The notes under the pieces are model-generated. The model did not search any database, had not been told where the DNA came from, and saw only the letters and a list, made by a program, of their open reading frames with translations. From Styela clava (Eukaryota > Chordata > Ascidiacea > Stolidobranchia > Styelidae): DNA of 64,000 nt. Positions 1 through 34,714 of the stretch are shown piece by piece; the first letter of the stretch is position 1; every line of letters starts with the position of its first letter. A program made the position numbers and the translations under genes. The DNA lies in the NCBI RefSeq assembly GCF_964204865.1, contig NC_135255.1, positions 17,761,135-17,825,134 on the forward strand, written 5' to 3'.

Positions 1-198
1 GCACGAAGACAGCTGCAAATCTTCCATACTGCTTCCACCGGAGTAACTTCGGAACGCACAACAATTTCACGAATTCTTTAAATGGAAGTTAGATGGGCAT
101 TGTGATGTCACAGAGCAGAGACGGCAATTAAAATGTATTTGGTTACAGGCGAAGAGAATCTGGAATTTCTTTAACCGGTTAACTGCAGCGTGACGTTT

Positions 199-232
199 GA
201 CGTAATAATTTATTGTTTTAGCTTATTACGTC
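199..232. promoter_or_regulatory. Perfect inverted repeat of CRE/ATF-like half-sites in the spacer
   Basis: GACGTAATAA (199-208) and TTATTACGTC (223-232) are exact reverse complements with a 14-nt spacer. They are preceded by another TGACGT at 191-196. The pair recurs in most units. Some units carry CTTATTACGATG or GACGAAATAA and lose perfect symmetry. TGACGTAA resembles ATF/CREB-family sites; a regulatory role is inference. Confidence 0.4.
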
Positions 233-634
233 GCAATGGTTACAAATTAATTTCGAGTGATTTATCCTGGTATCTCTCAAAATTATTGACGAATCTAGAT
301 CGTTTTGTGATCCCTTGCTGCAAGAGATATGCAGCGTGCTTTGGACATATGGAAGTATTTTAGTGAAACAGTTTCCGTTATTCAATGTCACTTATGTGAC
401 AAATTTACAGTGCCCAGTGTGCAAATTCTTCTTTGAGATATCATACGGAAAAACAGCATCAACTGCGCCACATGGAATAGACAATTTACGCTTTTACCGA
501 AAACTGATTATGAATTTATCATTGTCCAATTTTCATAATCAGCAATCTTGGTACTTCAATTATTTTTCACCTCTATTGGGTCTCTACAAATACAGTTAGT
601 GATATTCTTTTAAATGAAACGCTACAGGAGATAA

Positions 635-653
635 ATTTGCGAAGACGTAATCA
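635..653 (+). promoter_or_regulatory. Candidate distal element: octamer-like plus CRE-like site
   Basis: ATTTGCGA (635-642) matches 6 of 8 positions of the octamer ATTTGCAT and is followed by GACGTAATCA. It lies 218-225 bp upstream of the U2 start, where vertebrate snRNA genes have their distal sequence element. It is kept in nearly all A and B spacers (B reads ATTTGCGATGACGTAATC). Function is inferred from position and conservation. Confidence 0.4.
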
Positions 654-740
654 TTTCTGACAAAATTGTACATTATAAAGATGATTTGTACCTGAGATGT
701 CAGTCAACGGTTAAAATAAATCGTAACCTTCAACCATCCA

Positions 741-757
741 GAATGGGTCAACCATTC
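741..757. promoter_or_regulatory. Short inverted repeat at about -119 of U2
   Basis: GAATGG and CCATTC flank GTCAA, forming a 17-bp palindrome 103-119 bp upstream of the U2 start. A-type units keep it. B-type units change the left arm (AAAATTGGTCAACCATTCC). Meaning unknown. Confidence 0.25.
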
Positions 758-794
758 CCAGCCCTACTAATTAGTATTGTAAGTGGAAACTTAA

Positions 795-812
795 TCACCG
801 TCACCGGAACCG
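795..812 (+). promoter_or_regulatory. Proximal sequence element (PSE) of the U2 promoter
   Basis: TCACCGTCACCGGAACCG lies at -65 to -48 of the U2 start at 860. It resembles the vertebrate snRNA PSE core (TCACCNTNAC followed by an A-rich part). The same spacing holds in all copies I measured, for example 15294 to 15359. Copies in the right half read TCGCCATCACCGGCACCG or TCACCATCACCGGCACCG. No TATA box sits at -25, which fits RNA polymerase II transcription of U2. In these genes the PSE recruits the SNAPc complex. Confidence 0.75.
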
Positions 813-859
813 TTTTCATAAATTCCTAATACATTATTGCGTGAAAACACCGACCATTT

Positions 860-1046
860 ATCGCTTCTTCGGCCTATTGGCTAAGATCAAGTGTAGTAAC
901 TGTTCTATTCAGATTAATACCTGAATCGTGGGGTACTCCCCCACTCTTGTATTAATTTGATTTTTGCGACGACGAGAGCGAGGGTTTGGCTTGCCACTCC
1001 GTTCTCACCGGTCGACTTGGCGTTGCACTACAGCCTTGACTGGCCC
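860..1046 (+). ncRNA. U2: U2 spliceosomal snRNA, copy 1
   Basis: U2 pairs with the intron branch point in the spliceosome. Recognised by the 5' end ATCGCTTC, then GGCC-TATT-GGCTAAGATCAAG, the branch-point recognition sequence GTGTAGTA, stem-loop IIa (TTCAG/CTGAA), IIb (GTGGGGTACTCCCCCAC), the Sm site ATTTTTG, stem III (GAGAGCG/CGCTCTC) and loop IV with TTGCACTAC, where U2B'' would bind. The length of 187 nt agrees with ~188 nt in human. The 3' end is placed by analogy and may be off by a few bases. This copy has TTTGG for TTCGG in stem-loop III and CGTTCTC in the stem, leaving a G-U pair. Confidence 0.95.
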
Positions 1047-1050
1047 GTCA

Positions 1051-1067
1051 CTTTCCTATTCGGAAAG
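1051..1067 (+). promoter_or_regulatory. Conserved hairpin 4 nt after U2, candidate 3'-end signal
   Basis: CTTTCC-TATTC-GGAAAG forms a 6-bp stem with a 5-nt loop just after the mature 3' end. It is present after every U2 copy. Changes cluster in the loop (TATTT, CATTT, TATTA), while the stem is kept in nearly all units. In vertebrates a 3' box follows snRNA genes at this place; no close match to the vertebrate box is seen, so this hairpin and the following GTTACGATTTATA are the best candidates. Confidence 0.4.
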
Positions 1068-2029
1068 TTACGATTTATCTAATGTTTGTCATGTTTCTCC
1101 TACTACTTTGTGAGGCAAAGCGAGTACTCACCCTCGTTCCGTGTCTTTTGGAATGGGCGCGGAGCGTCAGGCACGAAGACAGCTGCAAATCTTCCATACT
1201 GCTTCCACCGGAGTAACTTCGGAACGCACAACAATTTCACGAATTCTTTAAATGGAAGTTAGATGGGCATTGTGATGTCACAGAGCAGAGACTGCAATTA
1301 AAATGTATTTGGTTACAGGCGAAGAGAATCTGGAATTTCTTTAACCAGTTAACTGCAGCGTGACGTTTGACGTAATAATTTATTGTTTTAGCTTATTACG
1401 TCGCAATGGTTACAAATTAATTTCGAGTGATTTATCCTGGTATCTCTCAAAATTATTGACGAATCTAGATCGTTTTGTGATCCCTTGCTGCAAGAGATAT
1501 GCAGCGTGCTTTGGACATATGGAAGTGTTTTAGTGAAACAGTTTCCGTTATTCAATGTCACTTATGTGACAAATTTACAGTGCCCAGTGAGCAAATTCTT
1601 CTTTGAGATATCATACGGAAAAACAGCATCAACTGCGCCACATGGAATAGACAATTTACGCTTTTACCGAAAACTGACTATGAATTTATCATTGTCCAAT
1701 TTTCATAATCAGCAATCTTGGTACTTCAATTATTTTTCACCTCTATTGGGTCTCTACAAATACAGTTAGTGATATTCTTTTAAATGAAACGCTACAAGAG
1801 ATAAATTTGCGAAGACGTAAACATTTCTGACAAAATTGTACATTATAAAGATGATTTGTACCTGAGATGTCAGTCAACGGTTAAAATAAATCGTAACCTT
1901 CAACCATCCAGAATGGGTCAACCATTCCCAGCCCTACTAATTAGTATTGTAAGTGGAAACTTAATCACCGTCACCGGAACCGTTTTCATAAATTCCCAAT
2001 ACATTATTGCGTGAAAACACCTACCATTT

Positions 2030-2203
2030 ATCGCTTCTTCGGCCTATTGGCTAAGATCAAGTGTAGTAACTGTTCTATTCAGATTAATACCTAAATCGTG
2101 GGAGTGTATTAATTTGATTTTTGCGACGACGTGAGCGAGGGTTCGGCTTGCCACTCCGCTCTCACCGGTCGACTTGGCGTTGCACTACAGCCTTGACTGG
2201 CCC
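2030..2203 (+). pseudogene. U2: U2 snRNA copy 2, stem-loop IIb deleted
   Basis: Only 174 nt. The IIb hairpin is replaced by CGTGGGAGTGTATT, a net loss of 13 nt that removes the 3' arm. It also has CTAAATCG after IIa and GTGAGCG in stem III. The 5' half, Sm site and promoter are intact, so it may still be transcribed. I call it a likely defective gene. Confidence 0.8.
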
Positions 2204-3186
2204 GTCACTTTCCTATTCGGAAAGTTACGATTTATATAATGTTTGTCATGTTTCTCCTACTACTTTGTAAGGCAAAGCGAGTACTCACCCTCGTTCCGTG
2301 TCTTTTAGAATGGGCGCGGAGCGTCAGGCACGAAGACAGCTGCAAATCTTCCAAACTGCTTCCACCGGAGTAACTTCGGAACGCACAACAATTTCACGAA
2401 TTCTTTAAATGGAAGTTAAATGGGCATGGTGATGTCACAGAGCAGAGACTGCAATTAAAATGTATTTGGTTACAGGCGAAGAGAATCTGGAATTTCTTTA
2501 ACCGGTTAACTGCAGCGTGACGTTTGACGTAATAATTTATTGTTTTAGCTTATTACGTCGCAATGGTTACAAATTAATTTCGAGTGATTTATCCTGGTAT
2601 CTCTCAAAATTATTGACGAATCTAGATCGTTTTGTGATCCCTTGCTGCAAGAGATATGCAGCGTGCTTTGGACATATGGAAGTATTTTAGTGAAACAGTT
2701 TCCGTTATTCAATGTCACTTATGTGAAAAATTTACAGTGCCCAGTGTGCAAATTCTTCTTTGAGATATCATACGGAAAAACAGCATCAACTGCGCCACAT
2801 GGAATAGACAATTTACGCTTTTACCGAAAACTGATTATGAATTTATCATTGTCCAATTTTCATAATCAGCAATCTTGGTACTTCAATTATTTTTCACCTC
2901 TATTGGGTCTCTACAAATACAGTTAGTGATATTCTTTTAAATGAAACGCTACAGGAGATAAATTTGCGAAGACGTAATCATTTCTGACAAAATTGTACAT
3001 TATAAAGATGATTTGTACCTGAGATGTCAGTCAACGGTTAAAATAAATCGTAACCTTCAACCATCCAGAATGGGTCAACCATTCCCAGCCCTACTAATTA
3101 GTATTGTAAGTGGAAACTTAATCACCGTCACCAGAACCGTTTTCATAAATTCCCAATACATTATTGCGTGAAAACACCGACCATAT

Positions 3187-3373
3187 ATCGCTTCTTCGGC
3201 CTATTGGCTAAGATCAAGTGTAGTAACTGTTCTATTCAGATTAATACCTGAATCGTGGGGTACTCCCCCGCTCTTGTATTAATTTGATTTTTGCGACGAC
3301 GACAGCGAGGGTTCGGCTTGCCACTCCGCTCTCACCGGTCGACTTGGCGTTGCACTACAGCCTTGACTGGCCC
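3187..3373 (+). ncRNA. U2: U2 snRNA, copy 3
   Basis: 187 nt. Has CCCCCGCTCT after loop IIb and GACAGCG in the stem III 5' arm, which breaks one pair. The base before the start is A rather than T (CCATATATCG). Confidence 0.9.
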
Positions 3374-4356
3374 GTCACTTTCCTATTCGGAAAGTTACGA
3401 TTTATATAATGTTTGTCATGTTTCTCCTACTACTTTGTAAGGCAAAGCGAGTACTCACCCTCGTTCCGTGTCTTTTGGAGTGGGCGCGGAGCGTCAGGCA
3501 CGAAGACAGCTGCAAATCTTCCATACTGCTTCCACCGGAGTAACTTCGGAACGCACAACAATTTCACGAATTCTTTAAATGTAAGTTAGATGGGCATTTT
3601 GATGTCACAGAGCAGAGACTGCAATTAAAAAGTATTTGGTTACAGGCGAAGAGAATCTGGAATTTCTTTAACCGGTTAACTGCAGCGTGACGTTTGACGT
3701 AATAATTTATTGTTTTAGCTTATTACGTCGCAATGGTTACAAATTAATTTCGAGTGATTTATCCTGGTATCTCTCAAAATTATTGACGAATCTAGATCGT
3801 TTTGTGATCCCTTGCTGCAAGAGATATGCAGCGTGCTTTGGACACATGGAAGTATTTTAGTGAAACAGTTTCCGTTATTCAATGTCACTTATGTGACAAA
3901 TTTACAGTGCCCAGTGTGCAAATTCTTCTTTGAGATATCATACGGAAAAACAGCATCAACTGCGCCACATGGAATAGACAATTTACGCTTTTACCGAAAA
4001 CTGATTATGAATTTATCATTGTCCAATTTTCATAATCAGCAATCTTGGTACTTCAATTATTTTTCACCTCTATTGGGTCTCTACAAATACAGTTAGTGAT
4101 ATTCTTTTAAATGAAACGCTACAGGAGATAAATTTGCGAAGACGTAATCATTTCTGACAAAATTGTACATTATAAAGATGATTTGTACCTGAGATGTCAG
4201 TCAACGGTTAAAATAAATCGTAACCTTCAACCATCCAGAATGGGTCAACCATTCCCAGCCCTACTAATTAGTATTGTAAGTGGAAACTGAATCACCGTCA
4301 CCGGAACCGTTTTCATAAATTCCCAATACATTATTGCGTGAAAACACCGACCATTT

Positions 4357-4543
4357 ATCGCTTCTTCGGCCTATTGGCTAAGATCAAGTGTAGTAACTGT
4401 TCTATTCAGATTAATACCTGAATCGTGGGGTACTCCCCCACTCTTGTATTAATTTGATTTTTGCGACGACGAGAGCGAGGGTTCGGCTTGCCACTCCGCA
4501 CTCACCGGTCGACTTGACGTTGCACTACAGCCTTGACTGGCCC
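4357..4543 (+). ncRNA. U2: U2 snRNA, copy 4
   Basis: 187 nt. Differs from the consensus by CGCACTC in the stem III 3' arm and GACTTGACG in stem IV. Confidence 0.93.
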
Positions 4544-5526
4544 GTCACTTTCCTATTCGGAAAGTTACGATTTATATAATGTCTGTCATGTTTCTCCTAC
4601 TACTTTGTAAGGCAAAGCGAGTACTCACCCTCGTTCCGTGTCTTTTGGAGTGGGCGCGGAGCGTCAGGCACGAAGACAGCTGCAAATCTTCCATACTGCT
4701 TCCACCGGAGTAACTTCGGAACGCACAACAATTTCACGAATTCTTTAAATGGAAGTTAGATGGGCATTGTGATGTCACAGAGCAGAGACTGCAATTAAAA
4801 TGTATTTGGTTACAGGCGAAGAGAATCTGGAATTTCTTTAACCGGTTAACTGCAGCGTGACGTTTGACGCAATAATTTATTGTATTAGCTTATTACGTCG
4901 CAATGGTTACAAATTAATTTCGAGTGATTTATCCTGGTATCTCTCAAAATTATTGACGAATCTAGATCGTTTTGTGATCCCTTGCTGCAAGAGATATGCA
5001 GCGTGCTTTGGACATATGGAAGTATTTTAGTGAAACAGTTTCCGTTATTCAATGTCACTTATGTGACAAATTCACAGTGCCCAGTGTGCAAATTCTTCTT
5101 TGAGATATCATACGGAAAAACAGCATCAACTGCGCCACATGGAATAGACAATTTACGCTTTTACCGAAAACTGATTATGAATTTATCATTGTCCAATTTT
5201 CATAATCAGCAATCTTGGTACTTCAATTATTTTTCACCTCTATTGGGTCTCTACAAATACAGTTAGTGATATTCTTTTAAATGAAACGCTACAGGAGATA
5301 AATTTGCGAAGACGTAATCATTTCTGACAAAATTGTACATTATAAAGATGATTTGTACCTGAGATGTCAGTCAACGGTTAAAATAAATCGTAACCTTCAA
5401 CCATCCAGAATGGGTCAACCATTCCCAGCCCTACTAATTAGTATTGTAAGTGGAAACTGAATCACCGTCACCGGAACCGTTTTCATAAATTCCCAATACA
5501 TTATTGCGTGAAAACACCGACCATTT

Positions 5527-5713
5527 ATCGCTTCTTCGGCCTATTGGCTAAGATCAAGTGTAGTAACTGTTCTATTCAGATTAATACCTGAATCGTGGGG
5601 TACTCCCCCACTCTTGTAATAATTTGATTTTTGCGACGACGAAAGCGAGGGTTCGGCTTGCCACTCCGCTCTCACCGGTCGACTTGACGTTGCACTACAG
5701 CCTTGACTGGCCC
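5527..5713 (+). ncRNA. U2: U2 snRNA, copy 5
   Basis: 187 nt. Has TTGTAATAA before the Sm site, GAAAGCG in stem III and GACTTGACG in stem IV. The hairpin after the gene is weakened (CTTTCTTATTCGGAAAA). Confidence 0.92.
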
Positions 5714-6696
5714 GTCACTTTCTTATTCGGAAAATTACGATTGATATAATGTTTGTCATGTTTCTCCTACTACTTTGTAAGGCAAAGCGAGTACTCACCC
5801 TCGTTCCGTGTCTTTTGGAGTGGGCGCGGAGCGTCAGGCACGAAGACAGCTGCAAATCTTCCATACTGCTTCCACCGGAGTAACTTCGGAACGCATAACA
5901 ATTTCACGAATTCTTTAAATGAAAGTTAGATGGGCATTGTGATGTCACAGAGCAGAGACTGCAATTAAAATGTATTTGGTTACAGGCGAAGAGAATCTGG
6001 AATTTCTTTAACCGGTTAACTGCAGCGTGACGTTTGACGTAATAATTTATTGTTTAAGCTTATTACGTCGCAATGGTTACAAATTAATTTCGAGTGATTT
6101 ATCCTGGTTTCTCTCAAAATTATTGACGAATCTAGATCGTTTTGTGATCCCTTGCTGCAAGAGATATGCAGCGTGCTTTGGACATATGGAAGTATTTTAG
6201 TGAAACAGTTTCCGTTATTCAATGTCACTTATGTGACAAATTTACAGTGCCCAGTGTGCAAATTCTTCTTTGAGATATCATACGGAAAAACAGCATCAAC
6301 TGCGCCACATGGAATAGACAATTTACGCTTTTACCGAAAACTGATTAGGAATTTATCATTGTCCAATTTTCATAATCAGCAATCTTGGTACTTCAATTAT
6401 TTTTCACCTCTATTGGGTCTCTACAAATACAGTTAGTGATATTCTTTTAAATGAAACGCTACATGAGATAAATTTGCGAAGACGTAATCATTTCTGACAA
6501 AATTGTACATTATAAAGATGATTTGTACCTGAGATGTCAGTCAACGGTTAAAATAAATCGTAACCTTTAACCATCCAGAATGGGTCAATCATTCCCAGCC
6601 CTACTAATTAGTATTGTAAGTGGAAACTTAATCACCGTCACCGGCACCGTTTTCATAAATTCCCAATACATTATTGCGTAAAAACACCGACCATTT

Positions 6697-6883
6697 ATCG
6701 CTTTTTCGGCCTATTGGCTAAGATCAAGTGTAGTAACTGTTTTATTCAGATTAATACCTGAATTGTGGGGAACTCCCCCACTCTTGTATTAATTTGATTT
6801 TTGCGACGACGAGAGCGAGGGTTCGGCTTGCCACTCCGCTCTCGCCGGTCGGCTTGGCGTTGCACTACAGCCTTGACTGGCCC
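6697..6883 (+). ncRNA. U2: U2 snRNA, copy 6
   Basis: 187 nt. Has CTTTTTCGG in stem-loop I, GTTTTATTC after the branch-point region, GGGGAACTCCCCC in IIb and CTCGCCGGTCGGC in III/IV. It is followed by the truncated spacer. Confidence 0.92.
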
Positions 6884-7146
6884 GTCACTTTCCTATTCGG
6901 AAAGTTACGATTTATATAATGTTTGTCATGTTTCTCCTACTACTTTGCAAGGCAAAGCGAGTACTCACCCACCCACCGGTTAAAGATGATTTGTACCTGA
7001 GATGTCAGTCAACGGTTAAAATAAATCGTAACCTTCAACCATTCCCAGCCCTACTAATTAGTATTGTAAGTGGAAACTTAATCACCGTCACCGGAACCGT
7101 TTTCATAAATTCCCAATACATTATTGCGTGAAAACACCGACCATTT
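6884..7146 (+). repeat. Truncated array unit (spacer deletion of ~720 bp)
   Basis: Between U2 copies at 6697 and 7147 the spacer is only 263 bp. The sequence jumps at ~6970-6985 from the 5' spacer (GCGAGTACTCACCC) through ACCCACCGGTTAAAG to the promoter-proximal spacer (GATGATTTGTACCTG). The PSE and ~165 bp upstream of the next U2 are kept. The candidate octamer/CRE region at about -220 is lost for the downstream copy. Confidence 0.9.
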
Positions 7147-7333
7147 ATCGCTTCTTCGGCCTATTGGCTAAGATCAAGTGTAGTAACTGTTCTATTCAGA
7201 TTAATACCTGAATCGTGGGGTACTCCCCCACTCTTGTATTAATTTGATTTTTGCGACGACGAGAGCGAGGGTTCGGCTTGCCACTCCGCTCTCACCGGTC
7301 GACTTGGCGTTGCACTACAGCCTTGACTGGCCC
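7147..7333 (+). ncRNA. U2: U2 snRNA, copy 7
   Basis: 187 nt, equal to the array consensus over the gene. Its upstream spacer is cut to 263 bp, so it keeps the PSE but lacks the -220 region. Confidence 0.95.
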
Positions 7334-8313
7334 GTCACTTTCCTATTAGGAAAGTTACGATTTATATAATGTTTGTCATGTTTCTCCTACTACTTTGTAA
7401 GGCAAAGCGAGTACTCACCCTCGTTCCGTGTCTTTTGGAATGGGCGCGGAGCGTCAGGCACGAACAGCTGCAAATCTTTCATACTGCTTCCACCGGAGTA
7501 ACTTCGGAACGCACAACAATTTCACGAATTCTTTAAATGGAAGTTAGATGGGCATTGTGATATCACAGAGCAGAGACTGCAATTAAAATGTATTTGGTTA
7601 CAGGCGAAGAGAATCTGGAATTTCTTTAACCGGTTAACTGCAGCGTGACGTTTGACGTAATAATTTATTGTTTTAGCTTATTACGTCGCAATGGTTACAA
7701 ATTAATTTCGAGTGATTTATCCTGGTATCTCTCAAAATTATTGACGAATCTAGATCGTTTTGTGATCCCTTGCTGCAAGAGATATGCAGCGTGCTTTGGA
7801 CATATGGAAGTATTTTAGTGAAACAGTTTCCGTTATTCAATGTCACTTATGTGACAAATTTACAGTGCCCAGTGTGCAAATTCTTCTTTGAGATATCATA
7901 CGGAAAACAGCATCAACTGCGCCACATGGAATAGACAATTTACGCTTTTACCGAAAACTGATTATGAATTCATCATTGTCCAATTTTCATAATCAGCAAT
8001 CTTGGTACTTCAATTATTTTTCACCTCTATTGGGTCTCTACAAATACAGTTAGTGATATTCTTTTAAATGAAACGCTACAGGAGATAAATTTGCGAAGAC
8101 GTAATCATTTCTGACAAAATTGTACATTATAAAGATGATTTGTACCTGAGATGTAAGTCAACGGTTAAAATAAATCGTAACCTTCAACCATCCAGAATGG
8201 GTCAACCATTCCCAGCCCTACTAATTAGTATTGTAAGTGGAAACTTAGTCACCGTCACCGGAACCGTTTTCATAAATTCCCAATACATTATTGCGTGAAA
8301 ACACCGACCATTT

Positions 8314-8500
8314 ATCGCTTCTTCGGCCTATTGGCTAAGATCAAGTGTAGTAACTGTTCTATTCAGGGTAATACCTGAATCGTGGGGTACTCCCCCACTC
8401 TTGTATTAATTTGATTTTTGCGACGACGAGAACGAGGGTTCGGCTTGCCACTCCGCTCTCACCGGTCGGCTTGGCGTTGCTCTACAGCCTTGACTGACCC
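8314..8500 (+). ncRNA. U2: U2 snRNA, copy 8
   Basis: 187 nt. Has CAGGGTAATACC in the IIa loop, GAGAACG in stem III, TGCTCTAC in loop IV and TGACTGACCC at the 3' end. Confidence 0.92.
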
Positions 8501-9483
8501 GTCACTTTCCTATTCGGAAAGTTACGATTTATATAATGTTTGTCATGTTTCTCCTACTACTTTGTAAGGCAAAGCGAGTACTCACCCTCGTTCCGTGTCT
8601 TTTGGAATGGGCGCGGAGCGTCAGGCACGAAGACAGCTGCAAATCTTCCATACTGCTTCCACCGGAGTAACTTCGGAACGCATAACAATTTCACGAATTC
8701 TTTAAATGGAAGTTAGATGGGCATTGTGATGTCACAGAGCAGAGACTGCAATTAAAATGTATTTGGTTACAGGCGAAGAGAATCTGGAATTTCTTTAACC
8801 GGTTAACTGCAGCGTGACGTTTGACGTAATAATTTATTGTTTTAGCTTATTTCGTCGCAATGGTTACAAATTAATTTCGAGTGATTTATCCTGGTATCTC
8901 TCAAAATTATTGACGAATCTAGATCGTTTTGTGATCCCTTGCTGCAAGAGATATGCAGCGTGCTTTGGACATATGGAAGTATTTTAGTGAAACAGTTTCC
9001 GTTATTCAATGTCACTTATGTGACAAATTTACAGTGCCCAGTGTGCAAATTCTTCTTTGAGATATCATACGGAAAAACAGCATCAACTGCGCCACATGGA
9101 ATAGACAATTTACGCTTTTACCGAAAACTGATTATGAATTTATCATTGTCCAATTTTCATAATCAGCAATCTTGGTACTTCAATTATTTTTCACCTCTAT
9201 TGGGTCTCTACAAATACAGTTAGTGATATTCTTTTAAATGAAACGCTACAGGAGATAAATTTGCAAAGACGTAATCATTTCTGACAAAATTGTACATTAT
9301 AAAGATGATTTGTACCTGAGATGTCAGTCAACGGTTAAAATAAATCGTAACCTTCAACCATCAAGAATGGGTCAACCATTCCCAGCCCTACTCATTAGTA
9401 TTGTAAGTGGAAACTTAATCACCGTCACCGGCACCGTTTTCATAAATTCCCAATACATTATTGCGTGAAAACACCGACCATTT

Positions 9484-9669
9484 ATCGCTTCTTCGGCCTA
9501 TTGGCTAAGATCAAGTGTAGTAACTGTTCTATTCAGATTAATACCTGAATCGTGGGGTACTCCCCACTCTTGTATTAATTTGATTTTTGCGACGACGAGA
9601 GCGAGGGTTCGGCTTGCCACTCCGCTCTCACCGGTCGACTTGGCGTTGCACTACAGCCTTGACTGGCCC
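9484..9669 (+). ncRNA. U2: U2 snRNA, copy 9
   Basis: 186 nt. Loop IIb has one C less (GTACTCCCCACTC). Otherwise consensus. Confidence 0.94.
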
Positions 9670-10652
9670 GTCACTTTCCTATTCGGAAAGTTACGATTTA
9701 TATAATGTTTGTCATGTTTCTCCTACTACTTTGTAAGGCAAAGCGAGTACTCATCCTCGTTCCGTGTCTTTTGGAATGGGCGCGGAGCGTCAGGCACGAA
9801 GACAGCTGCAAATCTTCCATACTGCTTCCACCGGAGTCACTTCGGAACGCACAACAATTTCACGAATTCTTTAAATGGAAGTTAGATGGGCATTATGATG
9901 TCACAGAGCAGAGACTGCAATTAAAATGTATTTGGTTACAGGCGAAGAGAATCTGGAATTTCTTTAACCGGTTAACTGCAGCGTGACGTTTGACGTAATA
10001 ATTTATTGTTTTAGCTTATTACGTCGCAATGGTTACAAATTAATTTCGAGTGATTTATCCTGGTATCTCTCAAAATTATTGACGAATCTAGATCGTTTTG
10101 TGATCCCTTGCTGCAAGAGATATGCAGCGTGCTTTGGACATATGGAAGTATTTTAGTGAAACAGTTTCCGTTATTCAATGTCACTTATGTGACAAATTTA
10201 CAGTGCCCAGTGTGCAAATTCTTCTTTGAGATATCATACGGAAAAACAGCATCAACTGCGCCACATGGAATAGACAATTTACGCTTTTACCGAAAACTGA
10301 TTATGAATTTATCATTGTCCAATTTTCATAATCAGCAATCTTGGTACTTCAATTATTTTTCACCTCTATTGGGTCTCTACAAATACAGTTAGTGATATTC
10401 TTTTAAATGAAACGCTACAGGAGATAAATTTGCGAAGACGTAATCATTTCTGACAAAATTGTACATTATAAAGATGATTTGTACCTGAGATGTCAGTCAA
10501 CGGTTAAAATAAATCGTAACCTTCAACCATCCAGAATGAGTCAACCATTCCCAGCCCTACTAATTAGCATTGTAAGTGGAAACTTAATCACCGTCACCGG
10601 AACCGTTTTCATAAATTCCCAATACATTATTGCGTGAAAACACCGACCATTT

Positions 10653-10839
10653 ATCGCTTCTTCGGCCTATTGGCTAAGATCAAGTGTAGTAACTGTTCTA
10701 TTCAGATTAATACCTGAATCGTGGGGTACTCCCCCACTCTTGTATTAATTTGATTTTTGCGACGACGAGAGCGAGGGTTCGGCTTGCCACTCCGCTCTCA
10801 CCGGTCGACTTGGCGTTGCACTACAGCCTTGACTGGCCC
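10653..10839 (+). ncRNA. U2: U2 snRNA, copy 10
   Basis: 187 nt, consensus sequence throughout. A good reference copy for the array. Confidence 0.95.
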
Positions 10840-11822
10840 GTCACTTTCCTATTCGGAAAGTTACGATTTATATAATGTTTGTCATGTTTCTCCTACTACT
10901 TTGTAAGTCAAAGCGAGTACTCACCCTCGTTCCGTGTCTTTTGGAATGGGCGCGGAGCGTCAGGCACGAAGACAGCTGCAAATCTTCCATACTGCTTCCA
11001 CCGGAGTAACTTCGGAACGCACAACAATTTCACGAATTCTTTAAATGGAAGTTAGATGGGCATTGTGATGTCACAGAGCAGAGACTGCAATTAAAATGTA
11101 TTTGGTTACAGGCGAAGAGAATCTGGAATTTCTTTAACCGGTTAACTGCAGCGTGACGTTTGACGTAATAATTTATTGTTTTAGCTTATTACGTCGCAAT
11201 GGTTACAAATTAATGTCGAGTGATTTATCCTGGTATCTCTCAAAATTATTGACGAATCTAGATCGTTTTGTGATCCCTTGCTGCAAGAGATATGCAGCGT
11301 GCTTTGGGCATATGGAAGTATTTTAGTGAAACAGTTTCCGTTATTCAATGTCACTTATGTGACAAATTTACAGTGCCCAGTGTGCAAATTCTTCTTTGAG
11401 ATATCATACGGAAAAACAGCATCAACTGCGCCACATGGAATAGACAATTTACGCTTTTACCGAAAACTGATTATGAATTTATCATTGTCCAATTTTCATA
11501 ATCAGCAATCTTGGTACTTCAATTATTTTTCACCTCTATTGGGTCTCTACAAATACAGTTAGTGATATTCTTTTAAATGAAACGCTACAGGAGATAAATT
11601 TGCGAAGACGTAATCATTTCTGACAAAATTTTACATTATAAAGATGATTTGTACCTGAGATGTCAGTCAACGGTTAAAATAAATCGTAACCTTCAACCAT
11701 CCAGAATGGGTCAACCATTCCCAGCCCTACTAATTAGTATTGTAAGTGGAAACTTAATCACCGTCACCGGAACCGTTTTCATAAATTCCCGATACATTAT
11801 TGCGTGAAAACACCGACCATTT

Positions 11823-12015
11823 ATCGCTTCTTCGGCCTATTGGCTAAGATCAAGTGTAGTAACTGTTCTATTCAGATTAATACCTGAATCGTGGGGTACT
11901 CCCCCACTCTTGTATTAATTTGATTTTTGCGACGACGAGAGCGAGGGTTCGGCTTGCCACTCCGCTCTCACCGGTCGGCTTGGCGTTGCACTACACTTAC
12001 AGCCTGGACTGGCCC
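11823..12015 (+). ncRNA. U2: U2 snRNA, copy 11, 6-nt insertion in loop IV
   Basis: 193 nt. Loop IV reads GCACTACACTTACAGCCTGG, an insertion of 6 nt, and TTGACTGG became TGGACTGG. The change enlarges the loop expected to bind U2B'', so function may be affected. Confidence 0.85.
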
Positions 12016-23612: not shown

Positions 23613-23799
23613 ATCGCTTCTTCGGCCTATTGGCTAAGATCAAGTGTAGTAACTGTTCTATTCAGATTAATACCTGAATTGTGGGGTACTCCCCCACTCT
23701 TGTATTAATTTGATTTTGGCGACGACGAGAGCGAGCGTTCGGCTTGCCACTCCGCTCTCACCGGTCGGCTTGGCGTTGCACTACAGCCTTGACTGGCCC
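23613..23799 (+). ncRNA. U2: U2 snRNA, copy 21
   Basis: 187 nt. Has GAATTGTGG, the Sm variant GATTTTGGCG, and GCGAGCGTTCGG in stem-loop III. Confidence 0.92.
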
Positions 23800-24802
23800 G
23801 TCACTTTCCTATTTGGAAAGTTACAATTTATGTAATGTTTGTCATGTTTCTCCTACTACTTTGTAAGGAAAAGCGAGTACTCACCCTCGTTCCGTGTCTT
23901 TTGGAATGAGCGCGGAGCGTCAGGCACGAAGACAGCTGCAAATCTTCCATACTGCTTCCACCGGAGTAACTTCGGAACGCACAACAATTTCACGAATTCT
24001 TTAAATGGAAGTTAGATGGGCATTGTGATGTCACAAAGCAGAGACTGCAATTAAAATGTATTTGGTTACAGGCGAAGAGAATCTGGAATTTCTTTAACCG
24101 GTTAACCGCAGCGTGACGTTTGACGAAATAATTTATTATTTTAGCTTATTACGTCGCAATGGTTACAAATTAATTTCGAGTGATTTATCCTGGTATATCT
24201 CAAAATCATTGACGAATCTAGATCGTTTCGTGATCCCTTGCTGCAAGAGATATGCACCGTGCTTCGGACATATGGAAGTATTTTAGTGAAACATTTTCCG
24301 TTATTCAATGTCATTTATGTGACAAATTTACAGTGCCCAATGTGCAACTTTTTCTTTGAGATATCATACAGAAAACAGCATCAACTGGGCTACATTGAAT
24401 AGACCATTTACAAGAAAACAATATATTTTTACCGAAGAATATATGCTTTTACCGAAAACTGAATATGACTTTATCATTGTCATCAACATCTTGGTACTTC
24501 AATTATTTCTCACATTTATTGGGTCTTTACAAATACAGTTAGTGATATTCTTTTAAATTAAACGCTACAAGAGATAAATTTGCGATGACGTAATCATTTC
24601 TGACGAATTTATACATTATAAAAAGAATTTGTTTCTGAGATGTCAGTTAACGGTTAAAATAAATCGTAACCTTTAACCATCCAAAATTGGTCAACCATTC
24701 CCAGCCCTACTAATTAGTATTGTAAGTGGAAACTTAATCGCCATCACCGGCACCGTTTTCATAAATTCCCAATACATTATTGCGTAAAAACACCGACCAT
24801 TT

Positions 24803-24989
24803 ATCGCTTCTTCGCCCTATTGGCTAAGATCAAGTGTAGTAACTGTTCTATTCAGATTAATACCTGAATCGTGGGGTACCCCCCCACTCTTGTATTAATT
24901 TGATTTTTGCGACGACGAGAGCGAGGGTTCGGCTTGCCACTCCGCTCTCACCGGTCGGCTTGGCGTTGCACTACAGCCTTGACTGGCCC
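24803..24989 (+). ncRNA. U2: U2 snRNA, copy 22
   Basis: 187 nt. TTCGCCCTATTGG in stem-loop I breaks a conserved G-C pair, and IIb reads GGTACCCCCCCAC. The first change is private to this copy. Confidence 0.9.
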
Positions 24990-25971
24990 GTCACTTTCCT
25001 ATTTGGAAAGTTACAATTTATATAATGTTCGTCATGTTTCTCCTACTACTTTGTAAGGAAAAGCGAGTACTCACCCTCGTTCCGTGTCTTTTGAAATGGG
25101 CGCGGAGCGTCAGGCACGAAGACAGCTGCAAATCTTCCATACTGCTTCCACCGGAGTAACTTCGGAACGCACAACAATTTCACGAATTTTTTAATGGAAG
25201 TTGGATAGGCATTGTGATGTCACAGAGCAGAGACTGCAATTAAAATGTATTTGGTTACAGGCGAAGAGAATCTGGAATTTCTTTAACCGGTTAACTGCAG
25301 CGTGACGTTTGACGTAATAATTTATTGTTTTAGCTTATTACGATGCAATGGTTACAAATTAATTTCGAGTGATTTATCCTGGTATCTCTCAAAATTATTG
25401 ACGAATCTAGATCGTTTTGTGATCCCTTGCTGCAAGAGATATGCAGCGTGCTTTGGACATATGGAAGTATTTTAGTGAAACAGTTTCCGTTATTCAATGT
25501 CATTTATGTGACAAATTTACAGTGCCCAGTGTGCAAATTCTTCTTTGAGATATCATACGAAAAAACAGCATCAACTGCGCCACATGGAATAGACAATTTA
25601 CGCTTTTACCAAAAACTGATTATGAATTTATCATTGTCCAATTTTCATAATCAGCAATCTTGGTACTTCAATTATTTTTCACCTCTATTGGGTCTTTACA
25701 AATACAGTTAGTGATATTCTTTTAAATGAAACGCTACAGGAGATAAATTTGCGAAGACGTAATCATTTCTGACAAAATTGTACATTATAAAGATGATTTG
25801 TACCTGAGATGTCAGTCAACGGTTAAAATAAATCGTAACCTTTAACCATCCAGAATGGGTCAACCATTCCCAGCCCTACTAATTAGTATTGTAAGTGGAA
25901 ACTTAGTCACCATCACCGGCACCGTTTTCATAAATTTCCAATACATTATTGCGTAAAAACATCGACCATTT

Positions 25972-26158
25972 ATCGCTTCTTCGGCCTATTGGCTAAGATC
26001 AAGTGTAGTAACTGTTCTATTCAGATTAATACCTGAATCGTGGGGTACTCCCCCACTCTTGTATTAATCTGATTTTTGCGACGACGAGAGCGAGGGTTCG
26101 GCTTGCCACTCCGCTCTCACCGGTCGGTTTGGCGTTGCACTACAGCCTTGACTGGCCC
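25972..26158 (+). ncRNA. U2: U2 snRNA, copy 23
   Basis: 187 nt. Same variants as copies 15 and 17. Confidence 0.93.
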
Positions 26159-27160
26159 GTCACTTTCCTATTTGGAAAGTTACAATTTATATAATGTTTG
26201 TCATGTTTCTCCTACTACTTTGTAAGAAAAAGCGAGTACTCACTCTCGTTCCGTGTCTTTTGGAATGAGCGCGGAGCGTCAGGCACGAAGACAGCTGCAA
26301 ATCTTCCATACTGCTTCCACCGGAGTAACTTCGGAACGCACAACAATTTCACGAATTCTTTAAATGGAAGTTAGATGGGCATTGTGATGTCACAAAGCAG
26401 AGACTGCAATTAAAATGTGTTTGGTTACAGGCGAAGAGAATCTGGAATTTCTTTAACCGGTTAACTGCAGCGTGACGTTTGACGTAATAATTTATTGTTT
26501 TAGCTTATTACGATGCAATGGTTACAAATTAATTTCGAGTGATTTATCCTGGTATCTCTCAAAATTATTGACGAATCTAGATCGTTTTGTGATCCCTTGC
26601 TGCAAGAGATATGCAGCGTGCTTTGGACATATGGAAGTATTTTAGTGAAACAGTTTCCGTTATTCAATGTCATTTATGTGACAAATTTACAGTGCCCAAT
26701 GTGCAACTTTTTCTTTGAGATATCATACAGAAAACAGCATCAACTGGGCTACATTGAATAAACCATTTACAAGAAAACAATATATTTTTACCGAAGAATA
26801 TATGCTTTACCGAAAACTGAATATGAATTTATCATTGTCATCAACATCTTGGTACTTCAATTATTTCTCACATTTATTGGGTCTTTACAAATACAGTTAG
26901 TGATATTCTTTTAAATTAAACGCTACAAGAGATAAATTTGCGATGACGTTATCATTTCTGACGAAATTATACATTATAAGGAGAATTTGTTTCTGAGATG
27001 TCAGTTAACGGTTAAAATAAATCGTAACCTTTAACCATCCAAAATTGGTCAACCATTCCCAGCCCTACTAATTAGTATTGTAAGTGGAAACTTAATCGCC
27101 ATCACCGGCACCGTTTTCATAAATTCCCAATACATTATTGCGTAAAAACACCGACCATTT

Positions 27161-27347
27161 ATCGCTTCTTCGGCCTATTGGCTAAGATCAAGTGTAGTAA
27201 CTGTTCTATTCAGATTAATACCTGAATCGTGGGGTACTCCCCCACTCTTGTATTAATTTAATTTTTGCGACGACGAGAGCGAGGGTTCGGCTTGCCAATC
27301 CGCTCTCACCGGTCGGCTTGGCGTTGCACTACAGCCTTGACTGGCCG
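27161..27347 (+). ncRNA. U2: U2 snRNA, copy 24 (recombinant, as copy 20)
   Basis: 187 nt. Type-1 5' half and type-2 3' half with the same switch zone as copy 20, exactly 4,720 bp downstream of it. One recombination followed by duplication explains both. Confidence 0.92.
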
Positions 27348-28332
27348 GTCACTTTCCTATTCGGAAAGTTACAATTTATATAATGTTTGTCTTGTTTCTC
27401 CTACTACTTTGTAAGGCAAAGCGAGTACTCACCCTCTTTCCGTGTCTTTCGGAATGGGCGCGGAGCATCAGGCATGAAGACAGCTGCAAATCTTCCATAC
27501 TGCTTCCACCGGAGTAACGTCGAAACGCACAACAATTTCACGAATTTTTCAAATGAAAGTTAGATGGGCATTGTGATGTCACAAAGCAGAGACTGCAATT
27601 AAAATGTGTTTGGTTACAGGCGAAGAGAATCTGGAATTTCTTTAACCGGTTAACTGCAGCGTGACGTTTGACGTAATAATTTATTGTTTTAGCTTATTAC
27701 GTCGCAATGGTTACAAATTAATTTCGAGTGATTTATCCTGGTATCTCTCAAAATTATTGACGAATCTAGATCGTTTTGTGATCCCTTGCTGCAAGAGATA
27801 TATGCAGCGTGCTTTGGACATATGGAAGTATTTTAGTGAAACAGTTTCCGTTATTCAATGTCATTTATGTGACAAATTTACAGTGCCCAGTGTGCAAATT
27901 CTTCTTTGAGATATCATACGGAAAAACAGCATCAACTGCGCCACATGGAATAGACAATTTACGCTTTTACCGAAAACTGATTATGAATTTATCATTGTCC
28001 AATTTTCATAATCAGCAATCTTGGTACTTCAATTATTTTTCACCTCTATTGGGTCTTTACAAATACAGTTAGTGATATTCTTTTAAATGAAACGCTACAG
28101 GAGATAAATTTGCGAAGACGTAATCATTTCTGACAAAATTGTACATTATAAAGATGATTTGTACCTAAGATGTCAGTCAACGGTTAAAATAAATCGTAAC
28201 CTTTAACCATCCAGAATGGGTCAACCATTCCCAGCCCTACTAATTAGTATTGTAAGTGGAAACTTAATCGCCATCACCGGCACCGTTTTCATAAATTCCC
28301 AATACATTATTGCGTAAAAACATCGACCATTT

Positions 28333-28519
28333 ATCGCTTCTTCGGCCTATTGGCTAAGATCAAGTGTAGTAACTGTTCTATTCAGATTAATACCTGAATT
28401 GTGGGGTACTCCCCCACTCTTGTATTAATTTGATTTTGGCGACGACGAGAGCGAGCGTTCGGCTTGCCACTCCGCTCTCACCGGTCGGCTTGGCGTTGCA
28501 CTACAGCCTTGACTGGCCC
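28333..28519 (+). ncRNA. U2: U2 snRNA, copy 25
   Basis: 187 nt. Same three variants as copy 21 (GAATTGTGG, GATTTTGGCG, GCGAGCGTTC). Confidence 0.92.
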
Positions 28520-29522
28520 GTCACTTTCCTATTTGGAAAGTTACAATTTATGTAATGTTTGTCATGTTTCTCCTACTACTTTGTAAGGAAAAGCGAGTAC
28601 TCACCCTCGTTCCGTGTCTTTTGGAATGAGCGCGGAGCGTCAGGCACGAAGACAGCTGCAAATCTTCCATACTGCTTCCACCGGAGTAACTTCGGAACGC
28701 ACAACAATTTCACGAATTCTTTAAATGGAAGTTAGATGGGCATTGTGATGTCACAAAGCAGAGACTGCAATTAAAATGTATTTGGTTACAGGCGAAGAGA
28801 ATCTGGAATTTCTTTAACCGGTTAACCGCAGCGTGACGTTTGACGAAATAATTTATTATTTTAGCTTATTACGTCGCAATGGTTACAAATTAATTTCGAG
28901 TGATTTATCCTGGTATATCTCAAAATCATTGACGAATCTAGATCGTTTCGTGATCCCTTGCTGCAAGAGATATGCACCGTGCTTCGGACATATGGAAGTA
29001 TTTTAGTGAAACATTTTCCGTTATTCAATGTCATTTATGTGACAAATTTACAGTGCCCAATGTGCAACTTTTTCTTTGAGATATCATACAGAAAACAGCA
29101 TCAACTGGGCTACATTGAATAGACCATTTACAAGAAAACAATATATTTTTACCGAAGAATATATGCTTTTACCGAAAACTGAATATGACTTTATCATTGT
29201 CATCAACATCTTGGTACTTCAATTATTTCTCACATTTATTGGGTCTTTACAAATACAGTTAGTGATATTCTTTTAAATTAAACGCTACAAGAGATAAATT
29301 TGCGATGACGTAATCATTTCTGACGAATTTATACATTATAAAAAGAATTTGTTTCTGAGATGTCAGTTAACGGTTAAAATAAATCGTAACCTTTAACCAT
29401 CCAAAATTGGTCAACCATTCCCAGCCCTACTAATTAGTATTGTAAGTGGAAACTTAATCGCCATCACCGGCACCGTTTTCATAAATTCCCAATACATTAT
29501 TGCGTAAAAACACCGACCATTT

Positions 29523-29709
29523 ATCGCTTCTTCGGCCTATTGGCTAAGATCAAGTGTAGTAACTGTTCTATTCAGATTAATACCTGAATCGTGGGGTACC
29601 CCCCCACTCTTGTATTAATTTGATTTTTGCGACGACGAGAGCGAGGGTTCGGCTTGCCACTCCGCTCTCACCGGTCGGCTTGGCGTTGCACTACAGCCTT
29701 GACTGGCCC
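29523..29709 (+). ncRNA. U2: U2 snRNA, copy 26
   Basis: 187 nt. Shares GGTACCCCCCCAC in IIb with copy 22 but keeps the normal stem-loop I (TTCGGCC). Confidence 0.92.
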
Positions 29710-30691
29710 GTCACTTTCCTATTTGGAAAGTTACAATTTATATAATGTTCGTCATGTTTCTCCTACTACTTTGTAAGGAAAAGCGAGTACTCACCCTCGT
29801 TCCGTGTCTTTTGAAATGGGCGCGGAGCGTCAGGCACGAAGACAGCTGCAAATCTTCCATACTGCTTCCACCGGAGTAACTTCGGAACGCACAACAATTT
29901 CACGAATTTTTTAATGGAAGTTGGATAGGCATTGTGATGTCACAGAGCAGAGACTGCAATTAAAATGTATTTGGTTACAGGCGAAGAGAATCTGGAATTT
30001 CTTTAACCGGTTAACTGCAGCGTGACGTTTGACGTAATAATTTATTGTTTTAGCTTATTACGATGCAATGGTTACAAATTAATTTCGAGTGATTTATCCT
30101 GGTATCTCTCAAAATTATTGACGAATCTAGATCGTTTTGTGATCCCTTGCTGCAAGAGATATGCAGCGTGCTTTGGACATATGGAAGTATTTTAGTGAAA
30201 CAGTTTCCGTTATTCAATGTCATTTATGTGACAAATTTACAGTGCCCAGTGTGCAAATTCTTCTTTGAGATATCATACGAAAAAACAGCATCAACTGCGC
30301 CACATGGAATAGACAATTTACGCTTTTACCAAAAACTGATTATGAATTTATCATTGTCCAATTTTCATAATCAGCAATCTTGGTACTTCAATTATTTTTC
30401 ACCTCTATTGGGTCTTTACAAATACAGTTAGTGATATTCTTTTAAATGAAACGCTACAGGAGATAAATTTGCGAAGACGTAATCATTTCTGACAAAATTG
30501 TACATTATAAAGATGATTTGTACCTGAGATGTCAGTCAACGGTTAAAATAAATCGTAACCTTTAACCATCCAGAATGGGTCAACCATTCCCAGCCCTACT
30601 AATTAGTATTGTAAGTGGAAACTTAGTCACCATCACCGGCACCGTTTTCATAAATTTCCAATACATTATTGCGTAAAAACATCGACCATTT

Positions 30692-30878
30692 ATCGCTTCT
30701 TCGGCCTATTGGCTAAGATCAAGTGTAGTAACTGTTCTATTCAGATTAATACCTGAATCGTGGGGTACTCCCCCACTCTTGTATTAATCTGATTTTTGCG
30801 ACGACGAGAGCGAGGGTTCGGCTTGCCACTCCGCTCTCACCGGTCGGTTTGGCGTTGCACTACAGCCTTGACTGGCCC
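30692..30878 (+). ncRNA. U2: U2 snRNA, copy 27
   Basis: 187 nt. Same variants as copies 15, 17 and 23. Confidence 0.93.
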
Positions 30879-31880
30879 GTCACTTTCCTATTTGGAAAGT
30901 TACAATTTATATAATGTTTGTCATGTTTCTCCTACTACTTTGTAAGAAAAAGCGAGTACTCACTCTCGTTCCGTGTCTTTTGGAATGAGCGCGGAGCGTC
31001 AGGCACGAAGACAGCTGCAAATCTTCCATACTGCTTCCACCGGAGTAACTTCGGAACGCACAACAATTTCACGAATTCTTTAAATGGAAGTTAGATGGGC
31101 ATTGTGATGTCACAAAGCAGAGACTGCAATTAAAATGTGTTTGGTTACAGGCGAAGAGAATCTGGAATTTCTTTAACCGGTTAACTGCAGCGTGACGTTT
31201 GACGTAATAATTTATTGTTTTAGCTTATTACGATGCAATGGTTACAAATTAATTTCGAGTGATTTATCCTGGTATCTCTCAAAATTATTGACGAATCTAG
31301 ATCGTTTTGTGATCCCTTGCTGCAAGAGATATGCAGCGTGCTTTGGACATATGGAAGTATTTTAGTGAAACAGTTTCCGTTATTCAATGTCATTTATGTG
31401 ACAAATTTACAGTGCCCAATGTGCAACTTTTTCTTTGAGATATCATACAGAAAACAGCATCAACTGGGCTACATTGAATAAACCATTTACAAGAAAACAA
31501 TATATTTTTACCGAAGAATATATGCTTTACCGAAAACTGAATATGAATTTATCATTGTCATCAACATCTTGGTACTTCAATTATTTCTCACATTTATTGG
31601 GTCTTTACAAATACAGTTAGTGATATTCTTTTAAATTAAACGCTACAAGAGATAAATTTGCGATGACGTTATCATTTCTGACGAAATTATACATTATAAG
31701 GAGAATTTGTTTCTGAGATGTCAGTTAACGGTTAAAATAAATCGTAACCTTTAACCATCCAAAATTGGTCAACCATTCCCAGCCCTACTAATTAGTATTG
31801 TAAGTGGAAACTTAATCGCCATCACCGGCACCGTTTTCATAAATTCCCAATACATTATTGCGTGAAAACACCGACCATTT

Positions 31881-32067
31881 ATCGCTTCTTTGGCCTATTG
31901 GCTAAGATCAAGTGTAGTAAATGCTCTATTCAGATTAATACCTGAATTGAGGGGTACTCCCACACTCTTGTATTAATTTAATTTTTGCGACGACGAGAGC
32001 GAGGTTTCGGCTTGCCAATCCGCTCTCACCGGTCGGCTTGGCGTTGCACTACAGGCTTGACTGGCCG
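31881..32067 (+). ncRNA. U2: U2 snRNA, copy 28 (type 2)
   Basis: 187 nt. Type 2 with three private changes: CTCCCACACTC in IIb, GAGGTTTCGG in III and ACAGGCTTGA in IV. The following hairpin has one broken pair (CTTTCC/GAAAAG). Possibly a decaying copy. Confidence 0.87.
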
Positions 32068-33050
32068 GTCACTTTCCTATTCGAAAAGTTACAATTTATA
32101 TAATGTTTGTCTTGTTTCTCCTACTACTTTGTAAGGCAAAGCGAGTACTCACCCTCGTTCTGTGTCTTTTGGAATGGGCGCGGAGCGTCAGGCACGAAGA
32201 CAGCTGCAAATTTTCCATACTGCTTCCACCGGAGTAACTTCGGAACGCACAACAATTTCACGAATTCTTTAAATGGAAGTTAGATGGGCATTGTGATGTC
32301 ACAGAGCAGAGACTGCAATTAAAATGTATTTGGTTACAGGCGAAGAGAATCTGGAATTTCTTTAACCGGTTAACTGCAGCGTGACGTTTGACGTAATAAT
32401 TTATTGTTTTAGCTTATTACGATGCAATGGTTACAAATTAATTTCGAGTGATTTATCCTGGTATCTCTCAAAATTATTGACGAATCTAGATCGTTTTGTG
32501 ATCCCTTGCTGCAAGAGATATGCAGCGTGCTTTGGACATATGGAAGTATTTTAGTGAAACAGTTTCCGTTATTCAATGTCACTTATGTGACAAATTTACA
32601 GTGCCCAGTGTGCAAATTCTTCTTTGAGATATCATACGGAAAAACAGCATCAACTGCGCCACATGGAATAGACAATTTACGCTTTTACCGAAAACTGATT
32701 ATGAATTTATCATTGTCCAATTTTCATAATCAGCAATCTTGGTACTTCAATTATTTTTCACCTCTATTGGGTCTTTACAAATACAGTTAGTGATATTCTT
32801 TTAAATGAAACGCTACAGGAGATAAATTTGCGAAGACGTAATCATTTCTGACAAAATTGTACATTATAAAGATGATTTGTACCTGAGATGTCAGTCAACG
32901 GTTAAAATAAATCGTAACCTTTAACCATCCAGAATGGGTCAACCATTCCCAGCCCTACTAATTAGTATTGTAAGTGGAAACTTAATCGCCGTCACCGGCA
33001 CCGTTTTCATAAATTTCCAATACATTATTGCGTAAAAACATCGACCATTT

Positions 33051-33239
33051 ATCGCTTCTTAGGCCTATTGGCTAAGATCAAGTGTAGTAACTGTTCTATT
33101 CAGATTAATACCTGAATTGTGGGGTACTCCCCCACTCTTGTATTAATTTGATTTTTGCGACGACGAGAATGGGTTCGGCTTGCCACTCCGCTCTCACCGG
33201 TCGGCTTGGCGTTGCACTACAGCCTTGACTGACTGGCCC
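33051..33239 (+). pseudogene. U2: U2 snRNA copy 29, stem III and IV altered
   Basis: 189 nt. The stem III 5' arm reads GACGAGAATGGGTTCGG (2 nt lost), so GAGAGCG is gone. GACT is duplicated in the 3' arm of stem IV (TTGACTGACTGGCCC). Stem-loop I has CTTCTTAGGCC. Three structural changes make it a likely defective copy. Confidence 0.75.
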
Positions 33240-34242
33240 GTCACTTTCCTATTTGGAAAGTTACAATTTATATAATGTTTGTCATGTTTCTCCTACTACT
33301 CTGTAAGAAAAAGCGAGTACTCACCCTCGTTCCGTGTCTTTTGGAATGGGCGCGGAGCGTCAGGCACGAAGACAGCTGCAAATCTTCCATACTGCTTCCA
33401 CCGGAGTAACTTCGGAACGCACAACAATTTCACGAATTCTTTAAATGGAATCTAGATGGGCATTGTGATGTCACAGAGCAGAGACTGCAATTAAAATGTA
33501 TTTGGTTACAGGCGAAGAGAATCTGGAATTTCTTTAACCGGTTAACTGCAGCGTGACGTTTGACGTAATAATTTATTATTTTAGCTTATTACGTCGCAAT
33601 GGTTACAAATTAATTTCGAGTGATTTATCCTGGTATATCTCAAAATCATTGACGAATCTAGATCGTTTCGTGATCCCTTGCTGCAAGAGATATGCATCGT
33701 GCTTCGGACATATGGAAGTATTTTAGTGAAACATTTTCCGTTATTCAATGTCATTTATGTGACAAATTTACAGTGCCCAATGTGCAACTTTTTCTTTGAG
33801 ATATCATACAGAAAACAGCATCAACTGGGCTACATTGAATAGACCATTTACAAGAAAACAATATATTTTTACCGAAGAATATATGCTTTTACCGAAAACT
33901 GAATATGAATTTATCATTGTCATCAACATCTTGGTACTTCAATTATTTCTCACATTTATTGGGTCTTTACAAATACAGTTAGTGATATTCTTTTAAATTA
34001 AACGCTACAAGAGATAAATTTGCGATGACGTAATCATTTCTGACGAAATTATACATTATAAAGAGAATTTGTTTCTGAGATGTCAGTTAACGGTTAAAAT
34101 AAATCGTAACCTTTAACCATCCAAAATTGGTCAACCATTCCCAGCCCTACTAATTAGTATTGTAAGTGGAAACTTAATCGCCATCACCGGCACCGTTTTC
34201 ATAAATTCCCAATACATTATTGCGTGAAAACACCGACCATTT

Positions 34243-34429
34243 ATCGCTTCTTTGGCCTATTGGCTAAGATCAAGTGTAGTAAATGCTCTATTCAGATTAA
34301 TACCTGAATTGAGGGGTACTCCCCCACTCTTGTATTAATTTAATTTTTGCGACGACGAGAGCGAGGGTTCGGCTTGCCACTCCGCTCTCACCGGTCGGCT
34401 TGGCGTTGCACTACAGCCTTGACTGGCCG
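34243..34429 (+). ncRNA. U2: U2 snRNA, copy 30 (type 2), last in the array
   Basis: 187 nt. Type 2 except for the type-1 base in GCCACTCCG. The unit breaks off ~285 bp after the gene. Confidence 0.9.
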
Positions 34430-34714
34430 GTCACTTTCCTATTCGGAAAGATACAATTTATATAATGTTTGTCTTGTTTCTCCTACTACTTTGTAAGGCA
34501 AAGCGAGTACTCACCCTCTTTCCGTGTCTTTCGGAATGGGCGCGGAGCATCAGGCATGAAGACAGCTGCAAATCTTCCATACTGCTTCCACCGGAGTAAA
34601 GTCGAAACGCACAACAATTTCACGAATTCTTCAAATTGAAGTTAGATGGGCATTGTGATGTCACAAAGAAGAGGCTGCAATCAAAATGTATTTGGTTACA
34701 GGTGAAGAGAATTC

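Follow-up and report, generated by a model that had tools for sequence, protein, structure and literature searches.

How does selection act on an essential gene whose single copies may be dispensable? U2 is an RNA required for messenger RNA splicing, and the question is raised by a tandem array of U2 small nuclear RNA (snRNA) genes in the ascidian Styela clava (assembly GCF_964204865.1, contig NC_135255.1, positions 17,761,135 to 17,825,134 of the forward strand; this whole stretch of 64,000 nt is called the window below). The array fills more than half of the window and presents 30 readable copies of an essential RNA gene, one after another in a single stretch, where the order of variants reveals block duplication, divergence confined to one spacer segment and, it appears, exchange within the gene. 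We read the locus as the right-hand end of a tandem U2 snRNA gene array that evolves in concert as a whole, and assign this reading a probability of roughly 0.78. In kind it is an ordinary tandem U2 array, of a type known from other animals, and its internal order is what makes it instructive: the alternation of unit types, the near-perfect duplication of a 4.72-kb block and the lack of visible per-copy constraint are its most interesting features. Its value is thus that of a worked example, not of a discovery.

Identity and extent of the array

The whole window was searched with cmscan against Rfam at the gathering thresholds, which for the U2 family (RF00004) is 46 bits. Exactly 30 U2 matches were returned, from 860 to 34436 and without exception on the + strand, each spanning positions 1-192 of the 192-position model with 118.2-153.6 bits and an expectation value (E) of 2.6e-23 or better, while no other Rfam family rose above its gathering score anywhere in the window. 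A sequence-only reading had counted 30 U2 genes in units of about 1.17 kb and had named the starts 860, 10653 and 15359 as test cases; these score 146.9, 145.8 and 140.0 bits. The genes lie head-to-tail, one per unit and 30 of 30 on the same strand, with a start-to-start spacing of 1157-1192 bp in 28 of the 29 steps. The count and the unit length are therefore confirmed. The remaining step, 450 bp from 6697 to 7147, is short because of a spacer deletion in the unit at 6697 (units and genes are named here by the position at which the gene starts).

The limits of the repeat were traced with one unit (17721) as blastn query. Identity spans the window from base 1, which corresponds to unit position 312, to 34719. 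Since the window opens inside a unit, the array extends beyond its left edge, as had been proposed; the right edge also lies inside a unit, 5 bp from the position given before (34714). The parts on which the argument rests are these:

1 to 859, + strand: partial unit, unit positions 312 to 1169, with spacer and the region preceding the first complete gene; 97.7% identical to unit 17721 by blastn
860 to 34436, + strand: 30 U2 snRNA genes, each an RF00004 match above the gathering score
Gene starts 1 to 15: 860, 2030, 3187, 4357, 5527, 6697, 7147, 8314, 9484, 10653, 11823, 12999, 14169, 15359, 16531
Gene starts 16 to 30: 17721, 18890, 20079, 21251, 22441, 23613, 24803, 25972, 27161, 28333, 29523, 30692, 31881, 33051, 34243
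6697 to 7146, + strand: unit with the spacer deletion, in which the gene is retained along with the proximal part of the region upstream of the following gene; blastn pieces 6697 to 6970 and 6981 to 7146
34243 to 34719, + strand: last, truncated unit, with a U2 gene and the first part of the 3' spacer, where the array ends on the right; 93.1% over 477 columns by blastn
17655 to 17676, + strand: candidate proximal sequence element (PSE, -66 to -45), example from gene 17721; position and sequence only
17911 to 17929, + strand: inverted repeat at the U2 3' end, as an example, with 7-bp arms and a 5-nt loop

The truncated unit 6697 lacks unit positions 275-985 by blastn, leaving both flanking genes in place; its junction holds 10 nt of other sequence and there is a separate 18-nt gap, so that overall the unit is about 720 bp short. 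The 30 gene stretches of 194 nt comprise 22 distinct sequences. The proposal that each unit holds a full U2 gene stands as far as the span of the model is concerned, which is complete in all 30 copies, but not for the integrity of every gene, as four of them carry indels: gene 2030 has lost 13 nt of stem-loop IIb, gene 9484 has lost 1 nt, gene 11823 has gained 6 nt in loop IV, and gene 33051 lacks 2 nt of stem III and has gained 4 nt in the stem IV region.

Every unit was also said to have a PSE at a fixed distance from the gene. A block at -66 to -45, which we take to resemble the vertebrate PSE, is found in all units at one fixed distance, which a repeat of any kind would show. It is a plausible candidate PSE. 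Of its 22 sites 5 are variable, and the 100 bp upstream of the gene (16/100 variable sites) are no more conserved than the remaining spacer (132/876, P=0.77). At the other end of the gene, both arms of the 7-bp inverted repeat are intact in 27 of the 30 copies. Taken by itself (35 nt), the repeat folds with -10.0 kcal/mol, but when the entire 218-nt stretch is folded just four of its pairs appear; by eye, the U2 of another contig (L002) also shows a hairpin at its 3' end.

Alternating units and a duplicated block

The order of the units was studied in an alignment limited to the 28 complete units; the two truncated ones (6697 and 34243) and the incomplete one at the left edge did not enter it. 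Pairwise identity among the 28 is 93.3-100%, corresponding to a maximum difference of 6.7%. The array divides into two parts, in which the following features are discussed:

860 to 14168, + strand: left sub-array; units of the short type, about 1170 bp each and with no higher-order periodicity, among them the truncated unit 6697
14169 to 34242, + strand: right sub-array, 17 full units alternating long and short; from unit lengths and lag identities
22261 to 31863, + strand: tandem duplication of a four-unit block of 4720 bp; from an exact-repeat scan
19613 to 19968, + strand: type-separating spacer segment (alignment columns 736-1105), example from unit 18890; from long-short identity
15359 to 15552, + strand: variant gene class, example gene 15359; from gene alignments

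The ten full units that start before 12000 share 98.2-98.4% identity at lags of one to five units, and together with unit 12999 they carry the short-type state in 69-72 of the 72 type-separating columns. From 14169 onwards, nine long units (1189-1192 bp) alternate with eight short ones (1169-1172 bp), and identity is 95.0-95.1% at lags 1, 3, 5 and 7 against 97.9-98.6% at lags 2, 4, 6 and 8. In this right sub-array, multi-unit blocks are more alike than neighbouring units, which is the mark of a satellite-type higher-order repeat. The stretch 22261-27143 is identical to 26981-31863 except at base 24815, that is, with one mismatch in 4883 bp, and a six-unit offset of 7082 bp also yields exact repeats of up to 1180 bp. 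Divergence grows with distance along the array (Mantel Spearman 0.25 for 28 units, with 4 of 2000 permutations as high); this trend and the near-identical 4883-bp block together indicate local homogenisation. The block duplication and the pattern of even and odd lags bear out the earlier view of the array as a record of concerted evolution, and the order of the units could be explained by unequal exchange of multi-unit blocks.

The two types differ chiefly by one spacer segment. Among the 72 columns with fixed long/short differences (gap columns counted), 71 fall in columns 736-1105 and none in the gene, and within this segment the long units have a 33-column insertion relative to the short ones. 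Identity between long and short units is 91.0% in the segment, compared with 96.55% in the gene, 96.43% in the earlier spacer and 96.99% at the end of the unit. The contrast is incomplete, as the earlier spacer shows 96.4% between types but 97.8 and 97.9% within them, and one 81-column window from column 244 drops to 94.2% between long and short. Among short units, no part is more uniform than this segment (99.37% versus 97.05% for the gene), and the left units match the short-type segment at 98.7%, over distances of about 2 to 31 kb. It appears that the types have exchanged the remainder of the unit, including the gene.

Divergence is mosaic within the gene as well. The genes 15359, 20079, 31881 and 34243 form a variant class sharing C11T, C41A, T44C, C68T and T70A, although C68T is also present in five further copies outside the class. 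Genes 22441 and 27161 are mosaics, which carry 100A, 138A and 187G of the variant class without 11T, 41A, 44C, 68T and 70A; conversely, 34243 is a member of the class without 138A.

These patterns can be accommodated by a sequence of events. Each unit consists of a gene, the upstream region belonging to it and nearly 1 kb of spacer, and the many copies together would supply the large U2 RNA demand of splicing. Unequal exchange would add or remove blocks of one or more units, while gene conversion or crossover would move shorter tracts between units. On the right side, one divergent spacer segment may have given rise to the two unit types, and amplification of a long/short pair, then of a four-unit block, would have produced the higher-order repeat. 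Selection would hold the consensus of the array, perhaps its U6/branch-site core, rather than every copy.

A coherent variant class is also what might be seen if the tandem copies made U2 for the egg and the early embryo, with another U2 locus taking over at later stages, and U2 isoforms of the sea urchin are indeed said to be developmentally regulated (cited in PMC4291461, of which an excerpt is used here). The window carries no information on timing, and we consider such a division of labour unlikely.

Constraint on the gene

In the 28 full units the gene is no more uniform than the spacer, with 38 of 194 sites variable against 148 of 976 (P=0.13). Singleton sites are commoner in the gene (22/194 versus 65/976, P=0.035, uncorrected), from which we claim no extra load. 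Sites at less conserved Rfam positions are variable in 28 of 122 cases (P=0.035 against the spacer), compared with 10 of 72 at conserved positions (28 versus 28 copies). For a test at the level of structure, the 30 genes were aligned with their downstream sequence and placed on the Rfam structure, and the substitutions were compared with random placement of the same base changes. Among 44 distinct substitutions, 12 break a consensus pair where 12.9 are expected (P=0.43); when genes 2030 and 33051 are left out, 9 of 38 break stems where 10.8 are expected (P=0.27). Nucleotides 14-40, which include GTAGTA (the branch-site recognition sequence GUAGUA), are kept in 30 of 30 copies, as is an Sm-type site, [AG]AT4-6G. 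Yet by permutation this 27-nt core is no more than suggestive (P=0.066), and an invariant run of 31 nt sits in the spacer. The gene's lack of extra uniformity, the two counts of stem breakage, the marginal P value of the core and the invariant run in the spacer all weigh against the main reading. The sole hint of structural selection is a slight excess of substitutions that create a pair where the consensus has none (4 versus 1.4 expected, P=0.048, uncorrected).

Because stem breakage is near random and the gene is as variable as the spacer, per-copy selection is not clearly visible. On the simplest reading, a single copy in so large a set is of little consequence, and the consensus is what selection acts on; an array that is mostly silent would give a similar picture. 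In a stronger form of the argument, which we hold only tentatively and regard as rather doubtful, the locus would be a satellite-like snRNA array in which block amplification keeps two spacer types strictly alternating, with exchange between them of the gene and of much else in the unit. Selection on the array consensus would be so weak for each copy that the gene drifts as fast as the spacer, and within the higher-order block a coherent variant class of U2 would be spreading.

The same observations would suit a U2-derived satellite, that is, a largely pseudogenic array amplified as anonymous DNA while the working U2 genes reside elsewhere. The gene-to-spacer comparison, the more frequent singletons and the indels in 4 of 30 genes all point in that direction, as does the consensus itself, which departs from strongly conserved Rfam letters at positions 17, 40, 54 and 188. 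However, the retention of nucleotides 14-40 and of the Sm-type site in every copy would be surprising in anonymous DNA, as would whole-model matches of at least 118 bits in all copies and a consensus that forms 38 of the 45 Rfam pairs, and we therefore judge a pseudogenic satellite improbable. It is more improbable still that the higher-order repeat is an assembly artefact imposed on a real monomeric array, for although a near-perfect 4883-bp duplication inside a repeat is a place where assemblers err, the length alternation runs through 17 right-hand full units, several with private variants, and misassembly alone would not create these.

Known systems and the rest of the window

We return to the tandem U2 array evolving in concert, which has counterparts in other animals. 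The tandem U1/U2 repeats of sea urchins include compact U2 units of about 1 kb, a likeness in unit size. Alpha satellite likewise has alternating divergent monomers amplified as a multi-unit block; unlike in alpha satellite, each Styela monomer holds an RNA gene. Concerted evolution has reportedly been studied at the human RNU2 locus. According to an excerpt of PMC3795722, RNU2 is a nearly perfect tandem array of 6.1-kb units, with 6-82 copies per allele, and so shares with the Styela array its head-to-tail U2 genes, one per unit. It differs from it in that the Styela unit is about one-fifth as long, in that Styela full units differ by up to 6.7% whereas RNU2 is described in that excerpt as nearly perfect, and in that the Styela array has two unit types in a higher-order arrangement. 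In the open-licence literature, judged mostly by titles and the beginnings of abstracts, we found no U2 array with a higher-order repeat, and we do not claim that none exists.

A U2 pattern search found no viral contigs and three genome contigs whose U2 is unlike that of the window, in a collection from which the window's own genome records were possibly excluded. A contig filed under a bacterial metagenome-assembled genome (L001, record JAOZOU010000036.1) resembles the window in holding a full U2 gene (172.1 bits), but has it once, beside U1, 5S ribosomal RNA and three histone 3' stem-loops, none of which reaches its gathering score in the window. Its stretch 118-4586, a clustered RNA-gene and histone locus, looks like eukaryotic contamination.

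Some candidates within the unit were set aside. Small nucleolar RNA-like matches in a 2.7-kb test stretch scored 14.5-23.2 bits against cut-offs of 55-88 and were taken as chance, and ARAGORN, run with the bacterial code, reported no transfer RNA. About 270-400 nt into the unit, the opposite strand offered a possible exon with a good 5' splice site; it was discarded by eye, since 10 sites vary in the 40-column bin 281-320.

Utopia and Keno are retrotransposons that target U2 genes (PMC4640811, from an excerpt). With such elements in mind we considered the spacings, by which no insertion lengthens any unit of the array. Two reverse transcriptases of the non-LTR (long terminal repeat) type lie at least 10 kb to the right of the array, and other features of the remaining window are listed with them:

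37447 to 37979, - strand: pieces of a possible decayed P-element/THAP-type transposase
45074 to 48298, - strand: 1074-aa open frame for a non-LTR-type reverse transcriptase that also has an endonuclease domain
49307 to 50581, - strand: non-LTR-type reverse transcriptase
51775 to 58327: direct duplication
60286 to 61569, - strand: 427-aa open frame, carrying a Ribonuc_2-5A (KEN) domain close to its end

The possible transposase has a weak TNP-like_GBD match of 15.9 bits, below the cut-off of 24.8, and a neighbouring piece is without a match. In the 427-aa frame, the Ribonuc_2-5A domain (E 2e-10) is of the kind found in RNase L and IRE1, and no further Pfam family was found in this frame at E 0.001 or better. 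The copies of the direct duplication lie about 3.85-3.9 kb apart, and four 300-nt pieces of it are 88-99% identical.

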